64,000 nt of DNA. It comes from Parabacteroides gordonii MS-1 = DSM 23371. GTDB lineage: Bacteria > Bacteroidota > Bacteroidia > Bacteroidales > Tannerellaceae. A program made the translations under genes and the position numbers. The stretch spans positions 2,474,671-2,538,670 of the forward strand of contig NZ_KQ033919.1 in assembly GCF_000969825.1 (NCBI RefSeq). The letters are read 5' to 3'. Position 1 is the stretch's first letter, and every line of letters starts with the position of its first letter. The notes below the pieces were generated by a model, which was not told the origin of the DNA, did not search any database, and was given only the letters and a program-made list of their open reading frames with translations. Positions 42,359-62,031 of the stretch are shown piece after piece.

Positions 42359-44068
42359 TCAGCGCTCTATTTTTCCTAAAGATTTTACAATTTCCGCAAA
42401 ATTCTCTCTGGGGACGATCGCTTTACTTCGTGTTTTCAGCCGGTTGTTGTAGACAGTCTGGGCAGAGCAGTGCAGGAACTCGGCTATCTTTACACTGTCA
42501 CTGATCCCCAGCCGCACGAGCGCATAGATACGGAGTTCGGTATTCAGTAATTCCCCTTCCTTGGGTATGATTTGCTTGTCCGGTTGCAGCAACGCATTGA
42601 AATCGGAAACAAAGTCAGGATAGATATGCAGGAAGATGGCATCGAAATTGGCATAGAATTCTTTCAGTTCGTTAGAAGCCAACGAAGAGGCATCTGTCAT
42701 CTTTTTTACCTCTTCCACCATACCGGCTTTGATCTTCCGGTTTATGTTTTTCCTGTATTCATCGAGCTTGCTGATATAGCTGGAACAGATATTGAATACA
42801 TAACCGATATATTCTTCCTTGACGTAATTTGATTCGGTCAGTTTGTTGTTGGCTTCCAGCAACTGTCCGTTCAACGACTGAAGCTGGTTGTTTGCTTCGG
42901 CCAGTTGCACATGTGCCAGTTCCAGTTCGTCCACATGATTATTCAACGCCTGATTGGCGACATTGAGCTTCTTTCGTGAATCTTTCAACCTCTTCATTTG
43001 TAGGGCAATAAAGAAGATGGCCGCAAGCAGGACTAACGACAACATACTGACGATAAGCAAATAACGGCGTAGATCGGCTTCCTGTTTCTTATTTCTCTGT
43101 TCGTAGGTTTTATGAATGGCATCCAGGGCAGAGGAGATACCGATCATCCGTATCCTGTTCTTGTAGAGTTGTGCACAACTCAGGCAATAATTCAGGTAAG
43201 AATATCCCCGGTCTATCTCTCCCTTCTCATAGAGTATTTTCCCTAACTCCTCCAATGATGCAATATCATGGTTGGCAGACCTTATATCGGCCATTGACGA
43301 GAGAATCAGATAACGGAGAAATTCTTCTTCCTTGTTCTCCTCTTTATATAGCTGGGCCAGGATATAAGAATTCATGGCGTCCGGACGTGAATTGAATTTG
43401 GAAGTAGCCAGTACGTGGGACAGCTGATCTCTTACCTCTGCGGCCTGAGGCGTTCCTTTGGACTGCCATCCTCTGTACCACAAATATAAAGGATGGTCGC
43501 CGGGAATATGAAAATAGACGGAGTCGCGGTATGATTTTTCCTGTATGTTGTAAAGAGCGGTCTGGCTGGAGTTCTCTCCCGAGTATTGTCCGTAGTGTGA
43601 ATACAGATACATCATCTGTCCGTAATAATCTGTCTTGGCATAGGATGACAGGTTTTCTACTTTTATCTCGTTCAGCAGATCCAGTCCCTCTTTCAGAAAG
43701 CCGGTAGCGGATGATATGAATGATTGTTCTATTTTCCATTGTGCCACCCATTGGAGATTATTCAGCCGTTGGGCAATATCCAGGTTCTTATGTATATAGC
43801 TCAGGGCAGAGTCACTGTCATATACCATATATTCCTCGTAAAACAGTTTGTTCATCCAGTATTGTTCTTCCTCTGTCTGAACCTTTTTCTCCATTTTCCT
43901 CAACTCTTCGATCCGTTTCTCTTTGGCAACAACAAATGTTTCCTTTTCTACAACCAGAGAGTCAAGACTTTGCAGCATCCTTTCTATATTGTCGGATATT
44001 ATTTGTCCTGTGGCATACCCTGAAAAGATAGATAAAGCGGTAATAAATAGTATTATTCTGATATACAT
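42359..44068 (-). CDS. SusR-like membrane-spanning regulator (DUF6377-type)
   Basis: This 569-residue protein has a signal peptide, a long periplasmic region rich in TPR-like helices (about 25-325), one membrane helix (about 337-357, [20 protein letters not shown]), a coiled coil (about 360-420, repeated [18 protein letters not shown]) and a C-terminal cytoplasmic domain. Near its end, [20 protein letters not shown] and [20 protein letters not shown] resemble a helix-turn-helix. This layout matches the DUF6377/SusR-like regulators that sense oligosaccharides in the periplasm and activate polysaccharide loci. It lies directly upstream of, and parallel to, the SusC operon and is the probable activator. 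Confidence 0.8.
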
Positions 44069-44094
44069 TGTTGTCTAATTTAAGGTTTACGGGT

Positions 44095-44102
44095 CAAAGA
44101 TA
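44095..44102 (-). promoter_or_regulatory. Putative -7 element of the SusR-like gene
   Basis: The minus strand reads TATCTTTG, matching TAnnTTTG, 26 bases before the start codon. It overlaps the edge of the adjacent terminator palindrome. Confidence 0.55.
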
Positions 44103-44133
44103 AAAAAAGAGGATGAATTCATCCTCTTTTTTT
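44102..44133. terminator. Perfect-palindrome terminator
   Basis: A fully symmetrical 32-bp sequence with core GAGGATGAATTCATCCTC, flanked by seven A and seven T. It lies after the M16 gene 3' end on the minus strand and probably was the native terminator of that gene before the island was acquired. Confidence 0.85.
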
Positions 44134-44163
44134 ACTACTTATAAACAATCTGCTATTTTAGTC

Positions 44164-44757
44164 TTACGGCTCCATCACCACCTCGATACTATTCCCCTGA
44201 CCAAGCAGCTTTTTGGTAAAAGCCTGTATTTTAGCCGGAGTAATACCATTCAGCGTTTCGACATACTTTGTTGCGCCGTCGAAGCCTTTGTAGTAATAAT
44301 TATCCAGTGTATTCAGCCAGTAGCTGTTTTCCTGTTGGTTTTCTGCATGACGTTTCAGGATATTGTCCTGCGTCTTTTTGAAATCTTCGGGACGCGGGCC
44401 GATGTCGGAGATACGTTTCAGTTCGTTGCGGACGATTGTGTTCATCTGTTCGCGTTTGCCCGGGTCGGTATCGAAGTAAGCCTGCAGGAATGTTTGTCCC
44501 TCGGGGAAAGTGGAGATACGTGCGGAAGTCTGTACACCGTATGTTCCACCTTCTTCTTCGCGTACCTTTTCCATATAAACAAGGTCGAGCACCTGTTTTA
44601 ACATGGTTGCCGTAAGGATGTTTTCCAGGTTGTAATCCATCTGACCGGAATAGAAGTTTACGACGGAAGCTTTCGGGGTTTCCATCTGGCGTTTGAAACG
44701 GTTGACGTATTCGCCTTTGCGGATGGGCGGGACTTCTTTTACATTTCCTTTTTCAAT
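44164..44757 (-). pseudogene. Orphan 3' fragment of an M16 peptidase gene (direct repeat, left copy)
   Basis: These 594 bases (198 codons to the stop) duplicate the 3' end of the complete M16 peptidase gene at 53027-55840, in the same orientation. By hand alignment I count about 23 nucleotide differences (about 96 percent identity) but only three amino-acid changes in the last 173 codons (Met/Ile, Gly/Asp, Gly/Ser). Identity stops at 44757, where IS66-like sequence begins. An internal ATG gives a 173-codon frame, but it lacks the signal peptide and the zinc site, so it is not a working gene. The native terminator still follows this copy. Confidence 0.92.
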
Positions 44758-44986
44758 AATAGCTTTATTGAGAAAAAACTTCTTGTTTTGTGGGAATCAT
44801 CAGGCGGCGGAAAACACAGCTGTTATATGTTCATTGTTAGTATCATGCAAAGCATCTCAAGTTAATCCCAGAGAATGGCTTATCGATATAATTGCTTGGC
44901 TACCATATTACACAAGAGATAAGGGAAAAGACCTAAAAGAGTTGCTACCCAATTACTGGAAACAGAGAAAATCCAAAGAAATCTAA
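44758..44986 (+). mobile_element. IS66-family transposase C-terminal remnant
   Basis: The + strand frame ending at 44986 reads RKNFLFCGNHQAAENTAVIC, then VNPREWLIDIIAWLPYY and DLKELLPNYW. This matches the conserved C-terminal end of IS66-family transposases (FxGxxxAAENxAvxySL ... DLxELLPxxw). The rest of the transposase is missing; the frame upstream reads straight into the antisense of the M16 fragment. It marks the left junction of the island. Confidence 0.8.
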
Positions 44987-45019
44987 CAATACTCTAATGA
45001 AAAGCATCTTATAAACAGA

Positions 45020-45058
45020 GAATCGCTATAAACTTATTAGATTTATATAGCGATTCTA
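45020..45058. repeat. Inverted repeat after the IS66 remnant
   Basis: AGAATCGCTATA (45020-45031) pairs perfectly with TATAGCGATTCT (45047-45058). It may be a terminator or part of the old element end; only weak T tracts follow. Confidence 0.5.
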
Positions 45059-45086
45059 TAATTTATACGGATACTTTATCGGGGGC

Positions 45087-45170
45087 TTGCGAAATAAGCT
45101 GGTAAAAGTTCTTGTAGGTCAGCATCGTTCTGGTAAAGGATTGTTTATGATGAGGTATGAAGTTGAAAGT
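45087..45170 (+). pseudogene. Fragment of an AAA/DUF4143 ATPase gene
   Basis: The frame NKLVKVLVGQHRSGKGLFMM corresponds to GNKLIKVLVGQRRVGKSYLL in the complete ATPase gene at 62023-63291, and the nucleotide match is clear over about 55 bases. The Walker A loop is altered (RRVGKS to HRSGKG) and homology then stops. This is a relic, not a gene. Confidence 0.7.
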
Positions 45171-45327
45171 AAGCGATTTATAGAGGGGCATATGAAGCAT
45201 ACTTTAGTGACTTGCTCATTTAATAATGTCCAAGTTACTAAAGTCTGTTTCTTTAATGTTGTCTGTTAGCATTTTATTGTCTATATCTTAAATTACCTGG
45301 CCTCTGATGAAGGACTTAGGTCACTAA

Positions 45328-46749
45328 TTAATCCCATCCGAATTTTTTTGTTCCTAAAATGCGATAATATGGACTTTCCTTAAGAGTATACGAATGGTAT
45401 CTATCCCACATATCTACTTGACCAACACTATGAGATTGATTATATCTGGCTTCAGATACTACTTTTAATGTTGTCTTATGACTACTGTTTTTAATTTTTA
45501 TATCTTCATATGATATAGTTTCCTTATGATTTGGTCGATAAGTAATAAATTTATTTCTATGAGAAATTTCGAATTGTATAAAAGATGGTGCAATTGTTGG
45601 AATTTTAGAAGAATTTTTATAAAAAGTCAAATAAAGGTTTTTAAATGAACTTTCAAGACTTTCTTCTGTCATTTCAACATAAACCGGTATTATTTTAATA
45701 TTATAAGTGAATTTTATTAATAGTGGTGAATTGTCTCTAGCATGAGCGTAAGTTACAAATATGGGTACTCCTGGTTCATTTTTGCTAAAGGTTCCCTTTT
45801 TTATATGGTTTAAGAAGCCAGTTAAACCAGTAAATGATTGAGCCGAACTCATCCCATTCCCTGCAACTAAATATACTTTAAAATCACAACTTTGTAGAAA
45901 ATCTTTCTCTTCTTTAGTGAAATTCGTTGAATTATTTATAAAAATTGATTTAAATACTTTATTGATATATTCCTTAGATGTATTAACAGAAGAATCAGTC
46001 TCCAATGTTAAAACACCTAATCGTCCGTAAGCAATAGAATTCATATAGACAGCTTCGTCAATTTCATTTTCAGGTATAGAAGCTATACCGTTTTGAGGAT
46101 AGTCCATAATGGCTTTAAAACTGGTTTGGTAAAATCTTACAGTAAGTCCGGTTGATTTAGAAATGGTTATATCCTCTCCACCTTCTTCTGTCGAATAACC
46201 CCAGAATAGCCCTGATACGTCTTTGTTGCTTCCAAATGAACTTTTGAGTTCATTATATGAAGTGAATTGTTCTACAGAAAAATTGAATTCCTGATTCTGA
46301 CTGAAATTACCTTTTTGAGTTTGAGATTCAACATATTGGCCAATGGTTATATAAGAAGGATTATTGATTGTACTAGCTGTTGTTCCAAGTAAAGTTAATC
46401 CCACTCTTATCGGATTTCTTTGATATGTTAAGGGTTTATAATCCAAATCAGCTACTGAACTTTTCTTTATGATATTTCCAAGCCATACATGAGGCAAAAG
46501 CTCAGGAAGCACAATAGATTCTGATGTTTCAACATTTCTTACCTGTATTAAAGGATTTCCAGAAGATTTTGTTAATAAGCTAATTGAATCTATGTTTTCT
46601 ATATTTCTATATGTAGATATATCAATTGATAGAGGAGTGTTTTTTACTGATTCTATCATACTAGTGATGTCGTTTTCATCTTCGTTTGAACATGATAAAA
46701 CAATTGTGAAACAGAAAATTAACGCTGTTATATTTATATAGTTTTTCAT
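45328..46749 (-). CDS. Cholesterol-dependent-cytolysin-like toxin, long component (CDCL-L)
   Basis: This 473-residue lipoprotein (lipobox Cys20, then SNEDEND, an acidic surface-export type start) belongs to the thiol-activated cytolysin family. Diagnostic stretches match pneumolysin and perfringolysin: AVYMNSIAYGRLGVLTLET (residues 233-251; family VxYGRxxxxxLET), DFKVYLVAGNGMSS (289-302), and HIKKGTFSKNEPGVPIFVTY followed by ARDN (315-340). Upstream, FYQTSFKAIMDYP matches the start of the membrane-insertion region. A C-terminal domain (about 350-473) takes the place of domain 4 but lacks the tryptophan-rich undecapeptide, so cholesterol binding is not expected. It follows the short component by two bases. 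By analogy with characterised Bacteroidota CDCLs, the pair forms a pore in competing bacteria after proteolytic activation. Confidence 0.88.
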   Translation of the reverse strand: MKNYINITALIFCFTIVLSCSNEDENDITSMIESVKNTPLSIDISTYRNIENIDSISLLTKSSGNPLIQVRNVETSESIVLPELLPHVWLGNIIKKSSVADLDYKPLTYQRNPIRVGLTLLGTTASTINNPSYITIGQYVESQTQKGNFSQNQEFNFSVEQFTSYNELKSSFGSNKDVSGLFWGYSTEEGGEDITISKSTGLTVRFYQTSFKAIMDYPQNGIASIPENEIDEAVYMNSIAYGRLGVLTLETDSSVNTSKEYINKVFKSIFINNSTNFTKEEKDFLQSCDFKVYLVAGNGMSSAQSFTGLTGFLNHIKKGTFSKNEPGVPIFVTYAHARDNSPLLIKFTYNIKIIPVYVEMTEESLESSFKNLYLTFYKNSSKIPTIAPSFIQFEISHRNKFITYRPNHKETISYEDIKIKNSSHKTTLKVVSEARYNQSHSVGQVDMWDRYHSYTLKESPYYRILGTKKFGWD

Positions 46750-46751
46750 GA

Positions 46752-47789
46752 TTAATTGGTTGTAAATGATGTTGAAAATATAGAGTTATCACTTGCGTAA
46801 TTACAAGTAAAGAATATAGGTACACCAGGAACTTCTTTTGAAAATTCTCCCCCATTTACAATAAATTCTTGAAATTTGTCGAATCCCATTACTAATTTTG
46901 CTACTTCTGAGCCTGCTCCACCGTAAACTAAAATCCGAATTTCTGCTTTTTCGAGTAATTCTTTGGATGTGGCATCTAGTTGTAACTCACCTCCGACAGC
47001 TTTTACGGTTAAAGCTAATTTAAAAGCCTTCTTTACTTCTTCATAATTTGATTCGCTTTCTATTGATATTATACCCATTCTTCCAAAAGTGACTGAATTA
47101 ATATACACAGGGGATAGATGAGATGTTGCAGCTAAATCTGATTGATTCTTGAAAATATTACCATCAGTAGGATAATCCATGATTACAGAGAAATTCTTCT
47201 GTAGGATTCTTGCAAATAGACCAGTTTTTTGCTTTATTTTACCGCTTTCGTATGTTGCATCTATTTTTAAAATATTGAAAATATTGATATTTCCTCCAAA
47301 TGCTAATTTCATTTCATTATAATATGAGAACTGTCGAAAATCATATTCAAATGACAATGATTGTTGTCCTGAAAATTTAGGAGATTCTACAGCTTTACCT
47401 AAAGATGTATACATAGATACAACTCCAGGAGTTGGAATTACGTCTGTAAAAAATCCTGGAAAAGTATAAGCTACAGAAATTGATTTTACAGGTTTATTTA
47501 TAGGATTTATAGTTAAATCATTTATAGAAGCTGCAGTATAGACTCCTCCAATAAATAAATTAACAGAGGTAATTGCTATTTCAGAACTTTGATTTTGTCC
47601 TTTACTTATTATTCCATAAGGATGAAAAGATTCATCCCAATCAAGAGTTTTGGAAGGGATAATAATGGGATCTGGTGTGTAGATCTTGTCTGAACTACTT
47701 TCACTGATATCACTATATTCCAGATCTTCTTTAGAACAAGATGCAAAAATAAGTAATAAAATTGCAAAATAATAAATTTTCTTTTTCAT
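46752..47789 (-). CDS. Cholesterol-dependent-cytolysin-like toxin, short component (CDCL-S)
   Basis: This 345-residue lipoprotein (lipobox Cys18, LLIFASC, then SKEDLE) is a second thiol-activated-cytolysin-family protein. PVYINSVTFGRMGIISIES (227-245), IRILVYGGAGSE (with the family Gly-Gly at 290-291), then VNGGEFSKEVPGVPIFFT and YASDNS (311-336) align with both the long component and classical CDCs. The protein stops right after this block, so it has domains 1-3 and no domain 4, as in the short subunits of two-component CDCL toxins. It is more like its partner than like any classical CDC and is cotranscribed with it. The short subunit probably makes up most of the pore ring; this is by analogy. 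Confidence 0.88.
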   Translation of the reverse strand: MKKKIYYFAILLLIFASCSKEDLEYSDISESSSDKIYTPDPIIIPSKTLDWDESFHPYGIISKGQNQSSEIAITSVNLFIGGVYTAASINDLTINPINKPVKSISVAYTFPGFFTDVIPTPGVVSMYTSLGKAVESPKFSGQQSLSFEYDFRQFSYYNEMKLAFGGNINIFNILKIDATYESGKIKQKTGLFARILQKNFSVIMDYPTDGNIFKNQSDLAATSHLSPVYINSVTFGRMGIISIESESNYEEVKKAFKLALTVKAVGGELQLDATSKELLEKAEIRILVYGGAGSEVAKLVMGFDKFQEFIVNGGEFSKEVPGVPIFFTCNYASDNSIFSTSFTTN

Positions 47790-47829
47790 AATCTTCGCTT
47801 TTTAATTGTTTGATATTATTTAGCTTATA

Positions 47830-48432
47830 CTAATTCATTTTCTTAAACCTATAATATATATTGCACCAAGCAGCTATATCATTGTTATTTAACATATCAC
47901 TAGGTTTTTCAAAATAACCATTTTTGTGAAATATTTTATTAAATGATTGTAAATCAAAATCACTTCCTTTCCATAAACTGACTCCCAATGCGTTATTAGA
48001 TTTGCGCACAATATAAAAACCGAGATGTGTTGTAATTTCGTCATTGTTGTTATCTACTGTACAGAAAAAGGTGTATGATTGATCATTTCTTAAAATGAAT
48101 ATAGAATCATTATGTTTGTGTGTTTCAAAGTAAATTGGATCCATTGATTTGATTTTCAGAATTAGTGAATCTGAATTTTCGTTAATTATTATTGTATCAG
48201 AGTAAGGCATTTTAATATTAGGCCAAAAGGTTAATGCTTTTTGTTCATTAAAATCTTTTATTAATCCCCTTTTTCCAAGGTATAAATTTAAATCTGTTAA
48301 TAAATAACTGCCATCAAAGACATAGGTCTTATTAATAGATGATTCTATTGATATTGTTTCTTTATTACAAGAAAAAAGAGTGAGAGTAATGAATAATAAT
48401 AATATTGTAAATGTTTTATGAATTGAAAGCAT
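47830..48432 (-). CDS. Small lipoprotein upstream of the CDCL pair; candidate immunity protein
   Basis: I do not recognise a family for this 200-residue lipoprotein (lipobox Cys22, TLTLFSC, then NKE). The mature part is rich in beta-type sequence (TYVFDGSYLLTDLNLYLGK, DSLILKIKSMDPIYF, SIFILRNDQSYTFF). It is the first gene of the CDCL operon, 40 bases before the short component, on the same strand. Published CDCL producers protect themselves with a surface lipoprotein that blocks pore assembly; position, size and lipidation make this protein the best candidate here. That is inference. It could instead be a third toxin component or an accessory factor. Confidence 0.75.
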   Translation of the reverse strand: MLSIHKTFTILLLFITLTLFSCNKETISIESSINKTYVFDGSYLLTDLNLYLGKRGLIKDFNEQKALTFWPNIKMPYSDTIIINENSDSLILKIKSMDPIYFETHKHNDSIFILRNDQSYTFFCTVDNNNDEITTHLGFYIVRKSNNALGVSLWKGSDFDLQSFNKIFHKNGYFEKPSDMLNNNDIAAWCNIYYRFKKMN

Positions 48433-48474
48433 GGACTATATTTGTTTTAATGTGATAAATTCTTGTTTTCACTT

Positions 48475-48482
48475 CAAAATTA
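48475..48482 (-). promoter_or_regulatory. Putative -7 element of the CDCL operon
   Basis: The minus strand reads TAATTTTG, 42 bases before the first lipoprotein start. The same word with two more shared bases (TAATTTTGAA) precedes the protease gene at 52842-52849. No -33 element is clear. Confidence 0.4.
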
Positions 48483-48613
48483 AGTAATATTATGCATGGC
48501 TAAGATGAATATGTATTCATAATTTGACTATGAATCTGAATTTTCATTAATTTATATAGTTGTTTATATTGAGTTGTTGATTTATGAGTATTAATTAACT
48601 ACATTTTGTATTT

Positions 48614-48715
48614 GTCAACCTTACTTTTGGTAAATGAGACTAAACACTTTGTGTGCAAGAGCCTGAGATCGAACAACGGATGCCCGAGACTTTTCGTTTG
48701 ACTTCTTGATAAGAT
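48614..48715 (-). pseudogene. Possible transposase C-terminal remnant
   Basis: The minus strand holds a 33-codon open tail ending in TAA with KKSNEKSRASVVRSQALAHK in it. The patch is richer in GC than its surroundings and reads like the basic C-terminus of a transposase, but I cannot name the family. Rest of the gap 48433-48889: AT-rich, no gene seen. Confidence 0.3.
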
Positions 48716-48766
48716 GGTAACATCAAGATTCTTACGTGACTAGATTTATAGAGGAAAGATATAAAC

Positions 48767-48840
48767 GGGTGTGCCAAACTAAAGTGAATTCCAAAAGTTT
48801 TTTGTCTAATTTTTAGAGTTCATTTTAGTTTGGCACACCC
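48767..48840. repeat. 74-bp MITE-like inverted repeat
   Basis: A 22-bp arm (48767-48788, starting GGGTGTGCCAAACTAAA) and its reverse complement (48819-48840) match at 21 of 22 positions around a 30-base AT-rich loop. It resembles two insertion-sequence tips joined together; it could also work as a bidirectional terminator after the synthase gene. Confidence 0.7.
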
Positions 48841-48889
48841 TCATTAAATTTAATAATTTAACATTTCTATATATGTTTTCATAGCAGTA

Positions 48890-50143
48890 TTATTCTTTTA
48901 TTAGATTATATGTGCTCTTAATTGATTCAAGAATATCCAACGTTTGATCCAAATCTTCTGTTGTATGCATGGCTGTTACGCTGAAACGTAACCGGGATAA
49001 CTTCTCAGGGACAACCGGATAACTAATCGGATTTACATATATACCTCGATCGAACAATACACGAGCAGCCTCTTTTACATTTTGTTCACTACGCACCATA
49101 ACAGGAAATATAGCTGATTCTGTATTCCCGAAATCCAGGTGTAGTTGCTCAAGTCCTTTCTTAAAGTAATTGATGTTATCAAGTAGGTTGTTTCTTAATT
49201 GCGGTTCCTTATCAACGAGCTGGATCGCTTTAATGGCGGAAGCAGCCGTTTGCGGAGTGGCAGCAGCGGAGAATATATTTTGTCTTGAATAATATCTTAA
49301 TAAAGTTATGATTTCTTTTCTGGCAATTGCATATCCGCCAACACATCCAAAAGACTTGCTGAATGTTCCGGTTATCATATCTACCTTATCCAATAGGTCA
49401 TAATCTTCAATAATTCCTCTTCCTGTTTTTCCTAAGACACCAATTCCATGTGCATCATCCACAATTAAGTAAGCACCAAATTCCTTACAGACCGTATATA
49501 TTTTATCTAACGGAGCGATATCGCCATCTTGTGAATACACGCCGTCTATAATAACAAACTTATTTTTGAAATCTCCTGCGTTTTTTAGTACATGAATAAG
49601 TGAATCTACATTGTTATGGAGAAATCTTTTCGTATTGGTACATAAGCAACCATCAAAAACACTGGCATGTGTGAACATATCCATTATTGCAATATCCTGT
49701 TTTCCCATTAATGAGAGTAAGGTGCTTGAATTGGCTGCATATCCGGAAGTGTATGATAGAGCGTATTCGTTTTTCATGAAACGGGCGATTTCCTGCTCTA
49801 ATTGCTCATGTAAAAAATTATGTCCCCCGATTAATGGACTGGCACCAGCACCGGCTCCATACTGTTCTAGTGCTTTTATACCGGCTTTTATTACTTCCGG
49901 ATGGTGTGATATCCCTAGATAATCATTTGATACGTAGCTGATTACTTCTTTTTCTTTATTGGAGTAAGGATCTATCAATTTCATTCGTGCATTGGAACCT
50001 GTTAATGAGATAACACGGTAGGGCAAATGTTGGATTTGATGTCTATATGAAATATAATCATCTATTTGTTTGGCTCTGGTCAAAAGGTCTTCTCCCCGGT
50101 TCTCAAAGTCTTTTAATGTCATGTTGTCGAATTTGTTTTGCAT
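48890..50143 (-). CDS. Alpha-oxoamine synthase family PLP enzyme
   Basis: This 417-residue cytosolic enzyme belongs to the alpha-oxoamine synthases (2-amino-3-ketobutyrate CoA ligase, serine palmitoyltransferase, 8-amino-7-oxononanoate synthase, CqsA), which condense an amino acid with an acyl-CoA. Motifs: YVSNDYLGISHHPEVIKAG, GAGASPLIGGHNFLHEQLE, DMFTHASVFDG (His159 stacking on PLP), IVDDAHGIGVLG, and TGTFSKSFGCVGGY with Lys263 as the Schiff-base lysine. The members cannot be separated by eye; no biotin genes or threonine dehydrogenase are nearby, so a serine-palmitoyltransferase-like or signal-molecule synthase role is as likely as any. It lies 47 bases after a Crp/Fnr regulator gene, inside the AT-rich island. 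Confidence 0.88.
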   Translation of the reverse strand: MQNKFDNMTLKDFENRGEDLLTRAKQIDDYISYRHQIQHLPYRVISLTGSNARMKLIDPYSNKEKEVISYVSNDYLGISHHPEVIKAGIKALEQYGAGAGASPLIGGHNFLHEQLEQEIARFMKNEYALSYTSGYAANSSTLLSLMGKQDIAIMDMFTHASVFDGCLCTNTKRFLHNNVDSLIHVLKNAGDFKNKFVIIDGVYSQDGDIAPLDKIYTVCKEFGAYLIVDDAHGIGVLGKTGRGIIEDYDLLDKVDMITGTFSKSFGCVGGYAIARKEIITLLRYYSRQNIFSAAATPQTAASAIKAIQLVDKEPQLRNNLLDNINYFKKGLEQLHLDFGNTESAIFPVMVRSEQNVKEAARVLFDRGIYVNPISYPVVPEKLSRLRFSVTAMHTTEDLDQTLDILESIKSTYNLIKE

Positions 50144-50190
50144 AAGGTAAACTGTTTTTGGAATTATAACTATAAAAGGAAATAATATAT

Positions 50191-50802
50191 TTAATGGATC
50201 TTTTTACGGATCTGGCTTAGTGTTTGAGGAGCTACTCCTATATAAGAAGCTATATATTTTAAAGGAATTTGTTGAATAAAATCTTTGTTTTTAGTCATTA
50301 GCTCTTTATATATTTCTTCACATGAAAGTCCCAATAATTGTATTTCTCGGTTAATCTTTCGTACTAAAGCATCTTCTAGAACGATTCGTGCGATTTTATT
50401 TATATTCAAGGAGGTTTCATATAAGTTGACCAGGTCTTGCTTTGCCAATTTCCAGATTATACAGTTAGTCAGAGCTTGAATATTTATGATAGAGGGTTCT
50501 TTTTGCTTAAGAGAGAAATAGGAATTCGCAAATTCTCCGGGAAAGGAGAACCAAAAAGTAATTTCCTTATCAGGATCATTATGACTAGTAGTAGTCCAAT
50601 AACGGAGGATACCTTTTTCTATGAAGTAAAGATAGTTCTCAAAATCACCGATTTTGATGGAAAATTCATTTTTCTTTATTTCTTCTCGTTTGAAGTGTTC
50701 ACAGAAAAAGGATTGTTCTTCCGTGGTAAGCCGTAAACCTTTGTTCAAGGAGTCAAGCTCATTTACGGACTGTTCTATTAGTAAGGCTATATTCGTTTTC
50801 AT
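50191..50802 (-). CDS. Crp/Fnr family transcriptional regulator
   Basis: This 203-residue protein has an N-terminal cyclic-nucleotide-binding-like beta-roll (FSIKIGDFENYLYFIEKGIL, then DKEITFWFSFPGEFANSY) and a C-terminal winged helix (IPLKYIASYIGVAPQTLSQI). No cysteines for an iron-sulfur cluster are arranged as in Fnr, and the usual cAMP-binding residues are not obvious, as in many Bacteroidota members. It is transcribed towards the synthase gene and probably controls it, alone or with other island genes. Confidence 0.88.
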   Translation of the reverse strand: MKTNIALLIEQSVNELDSLNKGLRLTTEEQSFFCEHFKREEIKKNEFSIKIGDFENYLYFIEKGILRYWTTTSHNDPDKEITFWFSFPGEFANSYFSLKQKEPSIINIQALTNCIIWKLAKQDLVNLYETSLNINKIARIVLEDALVRKINREIQLLGLSCEEIYKELMTKNKDFIQQIPLKYIASYIGVAPQTLSQIRKKIH

Positions 50803-50967
50803 ACAATTTCTTTTTTGTTAAATGGTGTTTATGTGGCGTCTTATTTTCAACGTATCAACGCAAAGTAAGAATAATGTCTGAACCGTCAAACAAAAAATGA
50901 AAAAATTATGGGAATGCCTTGTATTTATTAATATAGATTCATTATGCAGGGAGTAAATATGAAATAT

Positions 50968-51600
50968 TTACTCTGTTATTATTATGGGAGCATTAGGATC
51001 CTCTTTTATAAAGACGATACATTTATCATTTAAAATAGTGTTTTTAAAGGCATTTATAATGGTATCACTACATTCTTTCAGGCTTACATATATGTGATTA
51101 TCTTCAAAATTCAGCATATGACCTACTATCTTGATACTATCTATAATAGAACTGTTCTTTTTATCTTGAAGAAATTGGGTTAATATACTATCTACCTTTG
51201 TCAGATGGTTATACGAAAAATTACATGATTTAATAGAAAAGTCTGTACTATTAAGAATTTTGGTCATTTCTTTTTTCCCTTTCAATGTATCTCCTACAAT
51301 ATAGATTATGAGATTATAATCATCATCAGTAAAATTCCCACCATAGAAATCCGGGTATTTTTTCTTCTCTCTATAATAATCTCTGATTGTTAATAAGTTT
51401 TTTCTATATGTAGCCAATGAAATTCTTCTTGGCCAATTTTCGGGTTTAAGGGGATAAGCTTCACCCTCTGATTTATTCCTTTGCTCCAAAATCTTTTTTT
51501 GAGCAAAATCCTGATTGGAGTTGATGGAACTATCCTTGTTGGGACTTGTACAATAACAAAGGAATAGTATTATAATTAGTATTGTTAGGAGTTGTTTCAT
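50968..51600 (-). CDS. Lipoprotein homologous to the pro-domain of the adjacent protease
   Basis: This 210-residue lipoprotein has a Cys17 lipobox (ILFLCYC). Its residues 82-197 align over their whole length with residues 67-181 of the trypsin-like protease encoded just upstream: YPDFYGGNFTDDDYNLIIYI against YPDYYCGAYIDNNNFVILVN, then NHIYVSLKECSDTIINAFK against NRIFIELNDCNEEKITQFK. The protease region is its pro-domain, of a kind resembling alpha-lytic/streptogrisin pro-regions. A free-standing lipidated pro-domain suggests an inhibitor or folding helper for the protease, kept on the cell surface. No catalytic domain is present. This is homology I can see; the function is inference. Confidence 0.8.
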   Translation of the reverse strand: MKQLLTILIIILFLCYCTSPNKDSSINSNQDFAQKKILEQRNKSEGEAYPLKPENWPRRISLATYRKNLLTIRDYYREKKKYPDFYGGNFTDDDYNLIIYIVGDTLKGKKEMTKILNSTDFSIKSCNFSYNHLTKVDSILTQFLQDKKNSSIIDSIKIVGHMLNFEDNHIYVSLKECSDTIINAFKNTILNDKCIVFIKEDPNAPIIITE

Positions 51601-51674
51601 ACTTTGTATATAGTGGATGATAAAAATACGAAAGTATTATGGTTTTCCATAGTACTTTCGTATTTATTATAGGT

Positions 51675-52808
51675 TTAGTATGTTGTGAGATTCATTGTTC
51701 TATTTATTTCTGACGCAGAAATGAAGTATGAATAGCCACCACCTGCAGCTTCATGTATTCCATAAATATTATTACTACCTGAATAAACGATTCCACCACT
51801 ATCTCCGTCTTGACTAGGATAATTCGCTTTAGTTAGTCCGTAAAGTGTTACTTTTATTCCCATACTAGGAATAGTTATTGTTCCGGTAACATTAGTTGCA
51901 ATGACTTGTGATCTTAATCCTGCATGATTATTTTTACCCTCCATAGTTACATTTGCTCCTTGAAAAGGAGTTTCTACATAAGATGATATATAGATATTTT
52001 GCCAAAATGTGTAGTTGCTAGGATTATTCGTTTGTACAAAAGCTGCATCAACTGAACCACCAATCATTGTATTTGTACATGTTCCAATAAAGCCTTCAGG
52101 CCCATAAACAGACTCTCCATAACTCCTTACAACATGGCCTGATGCTACTATGCCATTGGATCCATTTGAACGTGCTCGATATCCAAAAGACCCGACCCCA
52201 GAACCTTGGCATTCTTCTCCAGGATAAACCTCTGCATGTGCCATTATTTTGTCAACTGATTTTTCAAATACTAGCATTGGCGAATCCATAACAAGACCTT
52301 TGAATTGAGTGATTTTTTCCTCGTTGCAATCATTCAATTCAATGAATATTCTATTTTTGTTAGGAAGAAGTCCAAAACTTTCTAATCCGCATTTTTCAAT
52401 TATAGATTTATTTACTTCGTTGAACATAAATGAATTTAGTAAATCTAATGTTTCATTTAATTCATTCATTGAATATGTTGCTAATTTCAGAATAAAATCG
52501 TTACTTTTTGTTCTCTGTATGAAATTATCTTTATACAGAGCCGTGTCTTTATTAACAAGAATAACAAAATTATTATTATCAATGTATGCACCGCAGTAAT
52601 AATCAGGATAAAGCAGGGTATTAGAACGTAATGGAGTTGCATTAAATGATTCCATTAAATTTATTCCTATTGCTGTAAGATCTTTCTGTTCGGTGGAAGA
52701 TGCTTTTGTTACAGGAATACTACCATCATCAGATAATATATTATCTGAACAAGATGTCATTGCACATATGGCTGTCAGTACCATAATTTTGAATAGTAAT
52801 TTTTTCAT
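51675..52808 (-). CDS. Trypsin-like (S1) serine protease lipoprotein with pro-domain
   Basis: This 377-residue lipoprotein (lipobox Cys20, ICAMTSC) has a pro-domain (about 60-185) and a chymotrypsin-fold protease (about 198-377) of the alpha-lytic/streptogrisin type. The triad is visible: GIVASGHVV (His225), GGSVDAAFVQ (Asp254) and PSQDGDSGGIVY (Ser337). GECQGSG opens the mature enzyme, and a substrate-pocket strand IYGIHEAAGG follows the Ser. It lies 74 bases upstream of the free pro-domain lipoprotein on the same strand, in the CDCL island. Since CDCL toxins need proteolysis to form pores, this enzyme is a candidate activator or a processing factor; direct evidence is lacking. Confidence 0.9.
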   Translation of the reverse strand: MKKLLFKIMVLTAICAMTSCSDNILSDDGSIPVTKASSTEQKDLTAIGINLMESFNATPLRSNTLLYPDYYCGAYIDNNNFVILVNKDTALYKDNFIQRTKSNDFILKLATYSMNELNETLDLLNSFMFNEVNKSIIEKCGLESFGLLPNKNRIFIELNDCNEEKITQFKGLVMDSPMLVFEKSVDKIMAHAEVYPGEECQGSGVGSFGYRARSNGSNGIVASGHVVRSYGESVYGPEGFIGTCTNTMIGGSVDAAFVQTNNPSNYTFWQNIYISSYVETPFQGANVTMEGKNNHAGLRSQVIATNVTGTITIPSMGIKVTLYGLTKANYPSQDGDSGGIVYSGSNNIYGIHEAAGGGYSYFISASEINRTMNLTTY

Positions 52809-52841
52809 GACTTATAATTTAAATGATTAATAAATACAATT

Positions 52842-52849
52842 CAAAATTA
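52842..52849 (-). promoter_or_regulatory. Putative -7 element of the protease gene
   Basis: TAATTTTG on the minus strand, 33 bases before the start. Shares TAATTTTGAA with the CDCL operon promoter candidate. Confidence 0.4.
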
Positions 52850-52973
52850 CTTTTGTATATTTTATTATTCGATAAACATATATTCAATTGCAAATAGATT
52901 AAATGAAGATATATTAATAAATATGATTATTTAGTATAGAATAGTGATTTTTTGTGTTGTAATGAATAGAAGT

Positions 52974-53023
52974 AAGAGCAAATTGAGAATATTTTTTTAC
53001 TTGTAGTTTCTCAATTTGCTCTT
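52974..53023. terminator. Hairpin at the right island junction
   Basis: A perfect 16-bp stem (52974-52989 with 53008-53023; core GAGCAAATTGAGAA) with an 18-base AT-rich loop lies 3 bases beyond the M16 stop codon. It probably terminates the intact M16 gene and differs entirely from the terminator at the left copy. Confidence 0.75.
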
Positions 53024-53026
53024 TAT

Positions 53027-53620
53027 TTACGGCTCCATCACCACCTCGATACTATTTCCCTGACCAAGTAGCTTTTTGGTAAAAGCCTGTATTTTAGCCG
53101 GAGTAATACTATTCAGCGTTTCGACATACTTTGTTGCACCGTCGAAGCCTTTGTAGTAATAATTATCCAGCGTATTCAGCCAGTAACTGTTTTCCTGTTG
53201 GTTTTCTGCATGACGTTTCAGAATATTGTCCTGCGTCTTTTTGAAATCTTCGGGACGCGGGCCGATATCGGAGATACGTTTCAGCTCGTTGCGGACGATT
53301 GTGTTCATCTGTTCCCGTTTATCCGGGTCGGTATCGAAGTAAGCCTGCAGGAAGGTTTGTCCCTCGGGGAAAGTGGAGATACGTGCAGATGTTTGTACAC
53401 CGTATGTTCCACCCTCTTCCTCACGTACCTTTTCCATATAAACAAGGTCAAGCACCTGCTTCAACATGGTTGCCGTAAGGATGTTTTCCAGGTTGTAATC
53501 TATCTGACCGGAATAGAAGTTTACGACGGAAGCTTTCGGGGTTTCCATCTGGCGTTTGAAACGGTTGACGTATTCGCCTTTGCGGATGGGCGGGACTTCT
53601 TTTACATTTCCTTTTTCAAT
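53027..53620. repeat. 594-bp direct repeat, right copy
   Basis: Offset from the left copy (44164-44757) is a constant 8863 bases without gaps. Identity begins at the stop codon and ends at 53620. The sequence between the copies is the AT-rich island. Confidence 0.92.
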
Positions 53621-55840
53621 TTTACCGTTGGCCGGCAAGGTTGCCAGGTATTGTTCTACCAGCGGACGGATACTATCGGTATCGATATTTCCTACGAAAG
53701 TGAAGACGAAGCCGGAAGCATCACCGAAACGCTCTTTATACATTTCCATGATACGCGGGTAACTTATGTTTTTGAAATCAGCTGGCTCGATACGCATGGC
53801 GCGCGGGTTGTTATTGTAAATAGCCTTGGTCAGCGAGTCGCTGAAAGCCACCATCGGGTTCAGTTCCACGTTTTTTAGCTGGGCGATCATACGGTTCTCG
53901 AACGATGCGTATGCCTCTTCGTCCATTCTTGGAGCGGTGAAATAGAGATAGATCAGTTCGAACAACGTTTTCAGGTCGGAAGGTGTGGAAGAACCGTTCA
54001 TATTTTCACTATCCATTCCCAGTGATGGAGAACAGGACACTTTCTTTCCGGCCAGAAGTTTGTTCAGGTCGGTTGACGAGAAGTTACCCAGGCCACCCAA
54101 ATCGATGACTTCGTTGAATATTTTCAGGTTGTCGATGTCCTTGTTGCCGAACAGCGTGCTTCCGCCCGGGCTGGTTGCCGTCATAACGATTTCATCTTTT
54201 TTGAAGTCGGTATGTTTCAATACCACTTTGATGCCGTTGCTTAAAGTCAATACGGTTGCACCGAACAGCGGATCTTCTTTACTCTCCGTAATCTTGCCGG
54301 GAGCAGGCAGTTCAGAGATCAGCGGCTCGTTGGAAAGAGTTTCCTTATAGGGTTCGACAGGGATACGTTGCGCTTTCATAAAGTCGCGAAGCAGCTCCTC
54401 GTCCGTAGGGTAAGTGATGCCCTCTTTTTCAGGCCCGGTCAAGCTGATAACGATATTCTTTTCGTCGATCATATCCTGAATATATTTGTTGACCTGTTCC
54501 ACCGGAACCGCCTGGGCGATCTGCCCGATCAGTGCATATTCGGTTTCGATCCCCGGGATATATCCGCCTTCTGTGAAATGGCGCACATATTCATTGGTGA
54601 AGGCACTGTTGCGTTGTTTATCGCGGTCGTTATAAATAGACTCGTACTGTTTCAGCACATTGATACGGGCACGGTCGTATTCCGAAGGTGTGAAACCGAA
54701 ACGTTTTACACGCTCCGTCTCTGTCACCAATGCATTCATCGCTGAGTCCACTTCGTTTTCCTTCACCAGTGCGGCAACCGACCAGGCACCTTTCGTCTTC
54801 GAGATCATATAATCGCCGTCTGAAGCCTGGGCTGCAACGAACGGGGGATTGGCTTTCTGTACCATTTCGTTGAAACGTTCGTTCATCATTGTGGCGGCTA
54901 CGCTCTGGATATAATCTTTTACCACGCCGGCAATCGTTCCGTACATATCCTGCGGCATCTTCTCATGTTTGTAGAAGATGGATAAGATGGTGTTTGATGC
55001 TTCCTTATCCGTTGCAATGGAGATCAGCGGCATATCGTTGTCGGCTACTTCGAACATTTTACGCGGAGCCGGGTTTACCGGAGCCGGAATATCAGCAAAT
55101 ATCTTTTTAACGGCCGCTTCTACCCGGTCGACATTAATATCTCCTACAATAATGATAGCCTGCAGATCCGGACGGTACCATTTATGATAATAATCGCGTA
55201 GTTCATCCGGTTTGAAATTGTTGATTACATCGATCGTTCCGATCGGCATCCGATGGGCATAACGGCTGTTCGGATACATTTTCGGCAATTGTTGTTCCCA
55301 GAGACGAGCCTGTGCATCCTGTCGTGTACGCCATTCTTCACGGATCACGCCGCGTTCCTTTTCGATCGCAGAGTCGGCCAGCGTAATGAAGTTCGACCAG
55401 TCGTGCAGGATCAGCAGGCAGGAGTCGACTACGCTTTCACGGGTTACCGGTGCATTCATGATCATATACACCGTTTCATCGAAGCTGGTATAAGCATTAA
55501 AGTTTTCACCGCCACGCATACCGACACTTTCGGTAAATTCATCCATCCCTTTATCGGGGAAGTTTTTCGATCCGTTAAAGGCCATGTGTTCCAGGAAGTG
55601 AGCCAGTCCGCGCTGGTTTTCTTCTTCCAGCATGGAACCTACATTCTGGGCGATATAGAAGTCCGCCCGTTCTTTCGGCAGTTTGTTGTGACGGATATAA
55701 TACGTTAATCCGTTGGGTAACTTACCATAACGAACCTGCGGATCGATAGGCAGTGGTTGCAGTTCCTGCTGTTGTGCTGCCAGCTGGAAAAGGCTGAAGA
55801 AGGTCAGCAGGAAAAGACAGAGGAGTCGTTGTTGTCTCAT
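53027..55840 (-). CDS. M16 family zinc metallopeptidase (pitrilysin-like)
   Basis: This 937-residue exported peptidase (signal peptide ending QLAAQ) has the inverted zinc motif in RGLAHFLEHMAFNG (His81, Glu84, His85) with a downstream acidic ligand near EKERGVIREEW. Two tandem M16 units follow, the second without a zinc site, as is normal for the clamshell of this family. It should degrade peptides in the periplasm. Its last 198 codons (53027-53620) are the right copy of the 594-bp direct repeat whose left copy lies at 44164. It is preceded on the same strand by the HU-like gene, 25 bases away. Confidence 0.95.
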   Translation of the reverse strand: MRQQRLLCLFLLTFFSLFQLAAQQQELQPLPIDPQVRYGKLPNGLTYYIRHNKLPKERADFYIAQNVGSMLEEENQRGLAHFLEHMAFNGSKNFPDKGMDEFTESVGMRGGENFNAYTSFDETVYMIMNAPVTRESVVDSCLLILHDWSNFITLADSAIEKERGVIREEWRTRQDAQARLWEQQLPKMYPNSRYAHRMPIGTIDVINNFKPDELRDYYHKWYRPDLQAIIIVGDINVDRVEAAVKKIFADIPAPVNPAPRKMFEVADNDMPLISIATDKEASNTILSIFYKHEKMPQDMYGTIAGVVKDYIQSVAATMMNERFNEMVQKANPPFVAAQASDGDYMISKTKGAWSVAALVKENEVDSAMNALVTETERVKRFGFTPSEYDRARINVLKQYESIYNDRDKQRNSAFTNEYVRHFTEGGYIPGIETEYALIGQIAQAVPVEQVNKYIQDMIDEKNIVISLTGPEKEGITYPTDEELLRDFMKAQRIPVEPYKETLSNEPLISELPAPGKITESKEDPLFGATVLTLSNGIKVVLKHTDFKKDEIVMTATSPGGSTLFGNKDIDNLKIFNEVIDLGGLGNFSSTDLNKLLAGKKVSCSPSLGMDSENMNGSSTPSDLKTLFELIYLYFTAPRMDEEAYASFENRMIAQLKNVELNPMVAFSDSLTKAIYNNNPRAMRIEPADFKNISYPRIMEMYKERFGDASGFVFTFVGNIDTDSIRPLVEQYLATLPANGKIEKGNVKEVPPIRKGEYVNRFKRQMETPKASVVNFYSGQIDYNLENILTATMLKQVLDLVYMEKVREEEGGTYGVQTSARISTFPEGQTFLQAYFDTDPDKREQMNTIVRNELKRISDIGPRPEDFKKTQDNILKRHAENQQENSYWLNTLDNYYYKGFDGATKYVETLNSITPAKIQAFTKKLLGQGNSIEVVMEP

Positions 55841-59279: not shown

Positions 59280-60488
59280 TTAAACATACAATAAAGAGGC
59301 GGCAGGCATCATTTTGATGATTATGCCGTCTTTTTCAAATGTGTCACTCTGGTTAAGGGTTACAATAGTACCTTGTTTTATGCCGAGATTTTGTATGGCT
59401 TCCAATAAGCCGTTATATTCACGGTCGAAGTTTTCATTGGTGATAGTCAAACAGACTTGTATGGCTTCTTTTACAGTGCTTTTCTCAATTGCGATAAAAT
59501 CGCACTCGCCACGGTCTTTATAATAGAAAATATGTTTGTATTTTCTGCGCAGATGTAAGAAAACGAGGTTTTCCAGGCGCCTGCCCATATTGTCACTGGT
59601 TGATAGGGCGTTTTCAGTGTAGAGCCCCATATCTGTCACATACACTTTTTTGGGGTTACGTGCCTGTATCTTCAGTGAATGGCTGAACATGGGGATGAAA
59701 TCCAGTAGATAAGCGTCTTTCAGGAATGAAAAGTATTCCAGAAAGGTTGCCGGCGATTTTATATCGAACATTCCTGCCAACTTATTTGCGGAAACAAGAT
59801 TTCCAATATTGGTTATCAGGTATGCAGTGAGTTGACGCAGTGAATTAACATCCCGAACAGAATGTCTGATTGCTATATCACGCATTAATATATCATCCAC
59901 TAAAGCATTCAGTACGTATGAAACGCTACTTTTCACATACTCGGGAATTCCTCCTGTCTTCAGATAATCGATCACTGCATTTTCGTCATTGTTCAATTTT
60001 TTGAAACGAATAAACTCGGAGTAGGAAAACGGAAACAGTTCCATTGATAAATATCTGCCTGTAAGGTGTGTGCCTAGCTCTACACTAAGCATAGAGGCAT
60101 TAGAACCGGTAATAAAAACTTTATAACCTTCACGTAATAATTGGTTAATAAACTTTTCCCAGTTTTCTATGACCTGCACTTCATCGAAGAATAATACCCG
60201 TATTTCTCTACGTTCAATTTCTTTGTGCAGACGGGTAAAGTCGGCTGTTTCAAAACCGGAAAGACGTATATCGTCAAAATTAAGATATATGGCATTCTGA
60301 TAATCCCGGCGAAGTAATTGTAGCAATAATGTACTTTTCCCGCAACGACGTATCCCGGTTATGATGGTCGCGAATGAATTCACTATTGGTATCTGGGACA
60401 AGGCATCGCGGCTAAAGCCAGAATCTTGTTTCAAAAACACTTCCCGCTGTGAGTCTATCACCAGGCTTATTTCTTCTTGTCTTATCAT
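59280..60488 (-). CDS. AAA ATPase with DUF4143 C-terminal domain (copy 1)
   Basis: This 402-residue protein has an AAA-type ATPase domain with Walker A GIRRCGKSTLLLQL (residues 45-52 core), Walker B VLFFDEVQVIENW and sensor FITGSNASMLSVELGTHLTG, then a DUF4143 domain. The C-terminal part resembles a degenerate PD-(D/E)XK nuclease core (GECDFIAIEKS, then EAIQVCLTI). Function unknown; these genes occur in many copies in Bacteroidales genomes. It is divergent from copy 2. The gene ends exactly where the truncated TPR gene breaks off. Confidence 0.88.
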   Translation of the reverse strand: MIRQEEISLVIDSQREVFLKQDSGFSRDALSQIPIVNSFATIITGIRRCGKSTLLLQLLRRDYQNAIYLNFDDIRLSGFETADFTRLHKEIERREIRVLFFDEVQVIENWEKFINQLLREGYKVFITGSNASMLSVELGTHLTGRYLSMELFPFSYSEFIRFKKLNNDENAVIDYLKTGGIPEYVKSSVSYVLNALVDDILMRDIAIRHSVRDVNSLRQLTAYLITNIGNLVSANKLAGMFDIKSPATFLEYFSFLKDAYLLDFIPMFSHSLKIQARNPKKVYVTDMGLYTENALSTSDNMGRRLENLVFLHLRRKYKHIFYYKDRGECDFIAIEKSTVKEAIQVCLTITNENFDREYNGLLEAIQNLGIKQGTIVTLNQSDTFEKDGIIIKMMPAASLLYV

Positions 60489-60521
60489 AGCCGTAATCTT
60501 AACAGGAATAACCTTTTGCTA

Positions 60522-60580
60522 CAAAGATAAAATATCTTTCGATAATAATGAATGATATCTTTCATTTTGAATGAAAGAAA
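60522..60580 (-). promoter_or_regulatory. Promoter and repeats of ATPase copy 1
   Basis: On the minus strand TATCTTTG (60522-60529) is a -7 element. Upstream of it TATCTTTC occurs twice (60534 and 60556 on the + strand), and CTTTCATT/AATGAAAG form an inverted pair at 60559-60577. The layout is that of an operator on a self-regulated promoter. Confidence 0.55.
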
Positions 60581-60610
60581 GTACGACGATACTGCTGTAT
60601 CATTGTTGGG

Positions 60611-60709
60611 TTATCAAACATAACTTATATATAGTTATATTTTCTGTTGTTTATAAGTTATGATTGATAAAAATGCTATATTTGCTTCGTTTATCAAGTA
60701 TAACTTATA
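60611..60709. promoter_or_regulatory. Three-copy 19-bp operator candidate
   Basis: TTATCAANNATAACTTATA occurs at 60611-60629 (+), 60652-60670 (inverted) and 60691-60709 (+), with 17 of 19 positions identical in all three and starts 41 and 39 bases apart. A -7 element TATATTTG (60677-60684, +) lies between the second and third copies. Confidence 0.8.
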
Positions 60710-60714
60710 AAATT

Positions 60715-61923
60715 ATGAAGATAATAGAGCGGCCTGTTTATAGCAAACGAATAAAACCTTTTATTGGTAAAGGCATTATAAAAGTGCTCACCGGTCAACG
60801 CCGAGTGGGTAAAAGCTACATCATGATGCAGTTGATGGAAGATATTCGTAAGGAAAATGTGGATGCCAACATCATATATATCAATATGGAACATGAGGAG
60901 TTTCGTATGATCCATAATGAAGATGATTTGTTTGCTTACCTGAAAGATAAAATAATAGAAGGGGGTGACAATTATCTTTTTATTGATGAAATACAAGATA
61001 TTGAAGGGTTTGAACATGTGCTACGCAGTTTGCAGGCGAAAGAAAGTTGTGATATATTTTGTACGGGTAGTAATGCCCGGATGTTGTCAGGTGAGCTTTC
61101 AACCTTCCTTTCCGGACGTTATATAGAATTTCATATACATAGCCTGAGTTATACGGAATTTCTTGTTTTCCACCAATTACCGGATAATAATCAGAGCTTG
61201 CTCCTGTATCTTACTTACGGAGGGATGCCCTATCTTTCAAAGTTGGCATTGACGGATGAACTGGCGTTCGAATATCTTCGAAATGTCTATGCTACCATTT
61301 TATTGAAGGATGTAGTCAAGCGCGAGGGTATCCGTAATGTTGATTTCCTGGAAACGCTGGCTCTTTATGCAGCAGATAATGTCGGCAATTTGTTCTCGGC
61401 CAATAATATCAGTAAATATCTTAAATCTCAACGGGTAGATATTTCAACAACACAGGTGATAAATTATTTGAAAGCATTAGGTAATGCTTATTTGATCAAT
61501 AAAGTAGGGCGGGTAGATGTAAACGGATTGAAGAAATTTGAAATAGGGGATAAATATTTCTTTGAAGATCTGGGGTTGCGTAATTGCCGTTTGGGCTTTA
61601 ACCTGCAACGAGATATTCATAAATTGTTGGAGAATGCTGTTTATCTACATCTTTCTTTTCTTCAATATGAAATATATGTCGGTCAGAAAGATAATCAAGA
61701 GATTGATTTTGTTGCCTTAAAGCAGGGGAAGAAAGTGTATATACAGGTGACTTATCTGATTCCGGATGAAAAAACCCGGGAACGTGAATTTGGGAACCTG
61801 ATGGCTATCCAGGATAATTATCCGAAATATGTAGTTAGTCTGGATGAGTTCAACAGAGGAAGCGATGTGGAAGGGATTATGCATCTTCATCTTTCGGATT
61901 TCCTGAAAAAGGAGCTTTTGTAA
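60715..61923 (+). CDS. AAA ATPase with DUF4143 C-terminal domain (copy 2)
   Basis: I start this 402-residue protein at ATG 60715 (MKIIERPVYSKRIKPFIGKG); an in-frame TTG at 60664 lies upstream of the -7 element. Walker A is GQRRVGKSYIMMQL (27-34 core), Walker B YLFIDEIQDIEGFEH, then FCTGSNARMLSGELSTFLSG. The DUF4143 part ends in a nuclease-like core (DNQEIDFVALKQGKK, then YIQVTYLI) in which the usual (D/E)XK is replaced by QVT, so cleavage activity is doubtful. It is followed after 99 bases by copy 3 and is likely cotranscribed with it. Confidence 0.88.
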   Translation: MKIIERPVYSKRIKPFIGKGIIKVLTGQRRVGKSYIMMQLMEDIRKENVDANIIYINMEHEEFRMIHNEDDLFAYLKDKIIEGGDNYLFIDEIQDIEGFEHVLRSLQAKESCDIFCTGSNARMLSGELSTFLSGRYIEFHIHSLSYTEFLVFHQLPDNNQSLLLYLTYGGMPYLSKLALTDELAFEYLRNVYATILLKDVVKREGIRNVDFLETLALYAADNVGNLFSANNISKYLKSQRVDISTTQVINYLKALGNAYLINKVGRVDVNGLKKFEIGDKYFFEDLGLRNCRLGFNLQRDIHKLLENAVYLHLSFLQYEIYVGQKDNQEIDFVALKQGKKVYIQVTYLIPDEKTREREFGNLMAIQDNYPKYVVSLDEFNRGSDVEGIMHLHLSDFLKKELL

Positions 61924-61970
61924 AGTAGACAAATCAGAAATAAGACCGGAAACATGATTTTGACACTGTG

Positions 61971-62031
61971 ATATTTTCGAGTATGGAAGAATATTCTTAC
62001 ATTTGAAGAAATATTTTCGAGTATGGAAGAA
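61971..62031 (+). promoter_or_regulatory. 40-nt tandem duplication with 7-codon upstream frame
   Basis: The same 21 bases (starting ATATTTTCGAGTATGG) occur at 61971-61991 and 62011-62031. The ATG in the second copy is the start of ATPase copy 3; the ATG in the first (61983) opens a 7-codon frame (MEEYSYI, stop TGA at 62004). A partial inverted version (TTCTTACATTTGAAGAA) lies between them. Confidence 0.6.

Follow-up and report, generated by a model that had tools for sequence, protein, structure and literature searches.

We examined a 64,000-nucleotide stretch of contig NZ_KQ033919.1 of Parabacteroides gordonii MS-1 = DSM 23371 (hereafter the window; the source genome comprises 6.79 Mb in 8 contigs), in which three neighbouring minus-strand genes code for a lipoprotein, here called LP200, and for a short and a long protein, CDCL-S and CDCL-L, related to the cholesterol-dependent cytolysins (CDCs). 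Judged from sequence, the short/long pair is a two-component CDCL toxin, a known family. The positions of the three genes, their order (lipoprotein, short, long) and the gaps of 40 and 2 bases given by the first-pass annotation were confirmed, and the one-operon layout that it had suggested holds, all three genes lying on the same strand. A lipobox-like motif (VLSC, FASC or LFSC; VLSC and FASC in the case of CDCL-S and CDCL-L) is found close to the N-terminus of all three proteins, as a pattern match only. With a probability of roughly three in four, we consider these genes to be a two-component CDCL toxin operon with a protective lipoprotein. The features of the locus and its surroundings are collected in Table 1.

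Table 1. Features of the CDCL locus and the surrounding island (window positions)
Feature	Position	Strand	Basis
CDCL-L, 473 aa lipoprotein; CDC core (domains 1-3) and C-terminal beta domain (about 354-473)	45328..46749	-	PF01289, PDB matches
CDCL-S, 345 aa lipoprotein; CDC core without domain 4	46752..47789	-	PF01289, PDB 8g32, CDCL tree
LP200, 200 aa lipoprotein, candidate immunity (antidote) protein	47830..48432	-	family profile, AlphaFold model
Inverted repeat, 33-nt arms, 88% complementary, downstream of AONS gene	48767..48840	.	single site in genome
AONS-family PLP-dependent acyltransferase (BioF/KBL/SPT-like), 417 aa; own N-terminal 60 residues	48890..50143	-	PF00155 175.6 bits
Crp/Fnr-like regulator, 203 aa	50191..50802	-	PF00027 39.6 bits, cut-off 27.5
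210 aa lipoprotein related to pro-region of neighbouring protease	50968..51600	-	BLASTP E 2e-13, 30% over 118 aa; alignment
377 aa lipoprotein, pro-region and probable S1-type serine protease domain (conserved His225, Asp254, Ser337)	51675..52808	-	residue conservation, profile match
Complete M16 peptidase gene, upstream island edge	53027..55840	-	
IS66-type transposase C-terminus remnant, between CDCL-L and M16 fragment	44831..44950	+	PF13817 E 8.4e-7, 29.5 bits (cut-off 30)
Second copy of M16 peptidase gene 3' end; direct repeat with 53012-53620, 95.4% over 612 aligned positions	44146..44757	-	sequence comparison
DUF6377 gene, downstream island edge	42359..44068	-	

The family assignment comes from profile, structure-database and tree comparisons. 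With the gathering score of 25 bits as the cut-off, the PF01289 profile matched CDCL-S at 66.9 bits (E 1.9e-18) and CDCL-L at 41 bits (E 1.4e-10), and the match that the first-pass annotation had expected is thus significant in both proteins. The best matches found by phmmer in the Protein Data Bank (PDB) were 8g32 (EaCDCL-S of Elizabethkingia anophelis, E 4.2e-86) for CDCL-S and 6xd4 and 8g33 (EaCDCL-L, E 6.4e-73 and 6.6e-73) for CDCL-L, in agreement with the long/short arrangement proposed earlier. In the CDCL tree, from which we left out the contig-cut short protein of L053 and CDCL-like proteins below 140 bits (L033, L034, L035, L173, L174 and the upstream protein of L037), the window short protein clusters among CDCL-S proteins. 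One further locus, L125, was left out of the comparisons. NCBIfam has no model for CDCL-S and gave only a chance match to CDCL-L (E 0.15). The CDC core fold, anticipated for both proteins, is present in the structure prediction of CDCL-L, while CDCL-S was judged from its sequence. Domain 4 is missing from the short protein, and the long one, as had been claimed, appears to end in a domain of another kind: it gave no good match to CDC domain 4 in the comparison made with the model of the long protein. The signature undecapeptide of the CDCs was not found in either toxin by motif inspection.

PF01289 matched in 3 of the 38 genomes of our genus sample and exceeded the cut-off in two of them, the window genome and G394, both of which carry CDCL pairs (the two short proteins are 32% identical). 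In the order sample 25 of 393 genomes gave a match, and in the sample of the B. ihuae family 15 of 231. Since only two genus genomes lie above the cut-off, the Parabacteroides gordonii pair that appears as CDCL "pattern 14" in passages of PMC11169675 is probably the window locus, which would hence be already catalogued.

The window pair shares with EaCDCL-S/EaCDCL-L (8g32, 6xd4, 8g33) the short/long division and the CDCL-L core fold, whereas the sequence alignment of the long proteins stops at residue 400 of 473. As far as the passages of PMC11169675 used here go, the E. anophelis operon has no other co-transcribed gene and no obvious immunity gene; the window operon, in contrast, is led by LP200. 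The order lipoprotein, S, L recurs in Bacteroides fragilis YCH46, where MGE1 carries BcdI and the BfCDCL pair; BcdI (30.4 kDa) and LP200 (200 aa) were compared by size and gene order alone. This element encodes a recombinase and targets a tRNA-Ser, whereas the window island lies between the M16 and DUF6377 genes and no tRNA was found within the 64-kb window.

A likely mechanism can be drawn up by analogy with the CDCLs of E. anophelis and B. fragilis: CDCL-S and CDCL-L would be exported as surface lipoproteins and would then reach a neighbouring cell. There, the C-terminal domain of CDCL-L would bind a surface receptor, a target-cell protease would cleave both toxins near the N-terminus, and one CDCL-L would recruit many CDCL-S to build a large beta-barrel pore in the outer membrane. 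LP200, first in the operon, would remain on the producer surface and block pore assembly. What the analysis shows is the family, the predicted CDCL-L fold, the gene order, the lipobox-like signals, a basic residue of CDCL-L and the repeated occurrence of LP200 beside CDCLs. We infer the secretion, the target and the activation, as well as the formation of a pore and the immunity. The antibacterial role is drawn from the CDCL family as described in passages of PMC11169675, and on this analogy the pair most likely kills rival bacteria. The basic residue, Arg71, aligns with the Thr-Lys column of EaCDCL-L, which by our own mapping seems to be the published cleavage site; Lys or Arg is present at this presumed activation column in 9 of the 13 aligned long proteins.

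LP200 is a candidate CDCL immunity protein by virtue of its family and its position. A profile made without the window protein recovers it at E 1.6e-21, and in our neighbourhood census (22 CDCL pairs; 715 reading frames over 43 loci) members of this family, which come from Bacteroidales and from Flavobacteriales, adjoin 16 of the 22 pairs and occur nowhere else. Neither this CDCL linkage nor the nature of the Crp, AONS and protease genes had been recognised in the first-pass annotation. The AlphaFold model (mean pLDDT 85.6) is mostly beta and barrel-like; nothing above the cut-off was found in Pfam and nothing below E 0.29 in the PDB. A profile search through 395 genomes of the class returned 12 matches, two of them strong. 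These (G000 and B. ihuae) are rows of the LP200 profile itself, and a tblastn search of the 12 loci (about 1.5 kb per side) placed CDCLs only beside these two. The ten others (E 3e-5 to 8.8e-4), nine of which start within the signal peptide (profile positions 1-5), are likely chance matches, and LP200 in non-CDCL contexts was therefore set aside; reading frames were inspected for four of the ten.

Alternatively, LP200 could be a third working part of the weapon, such as a receptor, a chaperone or an export helper, and not an antidote. We regard this as the best of the competing explanations, yet a good deal less probable than immunity: CDCL pairs without LP200 exist, hence not all pairs need it, and the sole characterised lipoprotein beside a CDCL pair known to us, described in passages of PMC11169675, is an immunity protein. 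A second lipoprotein family, one member of which carries DUF4377, was observed upstream of CDCL-S genes of the G394 and P. vulgatus types (L080:6346-7116, L051:9129-9968); it is perhaps a further immunity candidate, and perhaps related to BcdI.

Several observations weigh against the toxin-antidote interpretation. Passages of PMC7527733 define CDCLs by an F/Y-F/Y-Xn-YGR motif and a glycine pair. Of the motif blocks listed in the first-pass annotation, YGR in the long protein (SY...YGR) and PGVPI in both stand; the short protein, however, reads YY...FGR with a GG glycine pair, so that FGR replaces YGR, and the glycine pair of CDCL-L is Ala296-Gly297, position 296 being Gly in the consensus of the family. 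The confidence of the CDCL-L model, the one toxin model in which the core fold was seen, is low (mean pLDDT 61.9). The activation column is non-basic in 4 of the 13 long proteins (Empedobacter, two Phocaeicola and G394), and the activation region of CDCL-S did not align to EaCDCL-S. As for LP200, 6 of the 22 pairs have none in the examined stretch (one of these, L053, is contig-cut), and B. ihuae and Bacteroides G966 have 93% identical LP200 proteins beside toxins that are far apart, which a strict toxin-specific immunity does not predict.

A probable serine protease lies in the same island. The lipoprotein with the probable S1-type domain has its His, Asp and Ser conserved in 3 of 3 homologues, but its profile matches are weak (the best is the lytic endopeptidase 5mrt, E 5.8e-4) and no Pfam match was found. 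The adjacent prodomain-like lipoprotein is, from its sequence, a possible inhibitor of this protease. Since CDCLs require proteolytic activation (passages of PMC11169675) and the protease gene is located about 4 kb upstream on the same strand, it could be imagined that the protease activates the CDCLs and that the 210 aa lipoprotein restrains it on the producer. However, the cassette is present in 3 of the 38 genus genomes (window 50968-52808, L078:4845-8274, L147:1501-4147), and two of these, G395 and G402, have no CDCL match, while G394, the other genome of the genus with a CDCL pair, has no match to the protease. The occurrence of the cassette in G395 and G402 led us to demote this explanation to a weak rival, which we hold to be unlikely. 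Two prodomain-like genes stand beside the protease in G395 and three in G402; the whole looks like a secreted S1-like protease with dedicated inhibitors, independent of CDCLs.

It is still less probable that the operon is a decayed, inactive remnant. The IS66 remnant and the M16 fragment that flank it, together with the Ala-Gly of CDCL-L, would fit such a history, but the three frames are open and tightly spaced and most conserved family positions are kept. Finally, a pair directed at eukaryotic cells in the manner of CDCs, with which the window CDCL-L has the core fold in common, is highly improbable, as the cholesterol-binding undecapeptide was not found, the C-terminal domain gave no good match to CDC domain 4 and PMC11169675 describes action on bacteria for the B. 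fragilis pair and no lysis of sheep erythrocytes by the native pair of E. anophelis.

The operon thus read as toxin and candidate antidote belongs to a larger island. The AT-rich location noted earlier is evident from the G+C contents of the long, short and lipoprotein genes (0.300, 0.306 and 0.255), compared with 0.48 and 0.433 in the M16 and DUF6377 genes, respectively; at about 45 to 53 kb, the AT-rich stretch extends beyond the three-gene locus. The M16 gene and the duplicate of its last part delimit the island; a single-crossover insertion of DNA carrying an M16 end would explain this direct repeat. Between M16 and DUF6377 other cargo is found in G402 and G427, and as the cargo differs among three species of the genus (window 42359-55840; L078; L079), the site is variable. 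The island was also considered as a phage (97 viral-contig stretches matched a pattern, none confirmed as a relative) and as a plasmid (3 plasmid-collection records matched, one of them full-length, in Chryseobacterium), and both options were rejected. The inverted repeat is a candidate terminator or element end. Three adjacent AAA_14/DUF4143 ATPase genes were observed at window positions 59280-63291.

The acyltransferase and the Crp/Fnr-like regulator lie upstream of the operon. Against the bioF model the enzyme scores 358.4 bits, below the cut-off of 426.45, and its best solved matches, all of the same PLP (pyridoxal phosphate) enzyme family, are serine palmitoyltransferase (SPT, 309 bits) and KBL (300 bits), with CqsA at 138 bits. 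It represents a subfamily with its own N-terminus, on a separate branch: 16 subfamily proteins are split from 20 other AONS rows by a 99/96 branch (one of these rows, L108, is an off-frame artefact with a branch length of 10, leaving 19 sound outgroup rows). Copies of at least 40% identity are present in 8 of the 393 order genomes. G394 and G402 are the only other carriers of this AONS in the genus; compared with the window, their enzymes show 84-92% and their regulators 77-93% identity. In G394 both genes are directly upstream of a different CDCL operon, and in G402 they occupy the same site as in the window, without CDCL. A large deletion as the origin of this CDCL-free state was not supported, the AONS end of G402 continuing beyond that of the window with a one-base shift. 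In Empedobacter an AONS gene (49%) stands between the CDCL-S gene, to which it is divergent, and a TetR-like gene.

We had considered this AONS a dedicated CDCL partner, a view weakened by 13 of the 16 AONS loci having no CDCL in the examined stretch. The three loci with one (window, G394, Empedobacter) entered the sample via the window, genus or CDCL search, and the 12 loci from the AONS-led order and class samples (some on short contigs), together with G402, have no CDCL. Seen from the toxin side, an adjacent AONS occurs at 3 of the 22 CDCL pair loci, or 2 of 21 if the window is not counted. In 10 of the 16 loci the AONS has a Crp- or TetR-like gene next to it (the TetR calls in L050, L119 and L120 are below the Pfam cut-off), and the regulator is thus its more constant neighbour. 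The AONS-CDCL link, of which our searches of open-access papers gave no sign, is suggestive only, and control of the toxin or of the producer membrane by Crp and AONS is only a hypothesis. A bolder proposal, which we hold as speculative, is that in Parabacteroides and some Flavobacteriales the regulator-AONS module makes a small product (an alpha-aminoketone or a related signal or lipid) that times the pore or shields the producer membrane, with LP200 as a second, BcdI-independent antidote class common to different toxin types.

Other CDCL neighbourhoods contained further genes of note. In Dysgonomonas and B. ihuae a BACON-domain protein is encoded immediately upstream of CDCL-S (L037:8641-9921, L038:8785-9903), the Dysgonomonas one with a weak match to the CDCL-L profile (48.6 bits). 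TPR proteins of 559-580 aa occur beside CDCL genes or at most about 2 kb from them in four Bacteroidaceae genomes (L171:5069-6775, L172:3612-5354, L174:4037-5716, L038:13653-15359), two of them with a weak LuxR-type helix-turn-helix match. The Bacteroidaceae genome G846 has a run of lipoprotein genes, several of them CDCL-like (L173:8123-18491).

CDCLs are a complement-like bacterial weapon of common gut species. BcdI was the only CDCL antidote that our literature search found described (passages of PMC11169675), and LP200 is a concrete candidate to fill the immunity gap of E. anophelis-type operons. The toxin pair itself is of a known kind; the LP200 family deserves to be followed further, as do the regulator and AONS neighbours. 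The AONS gene, linked to Crp or TetR, raises the testable question of whether this weapon is under chemical control in some species.
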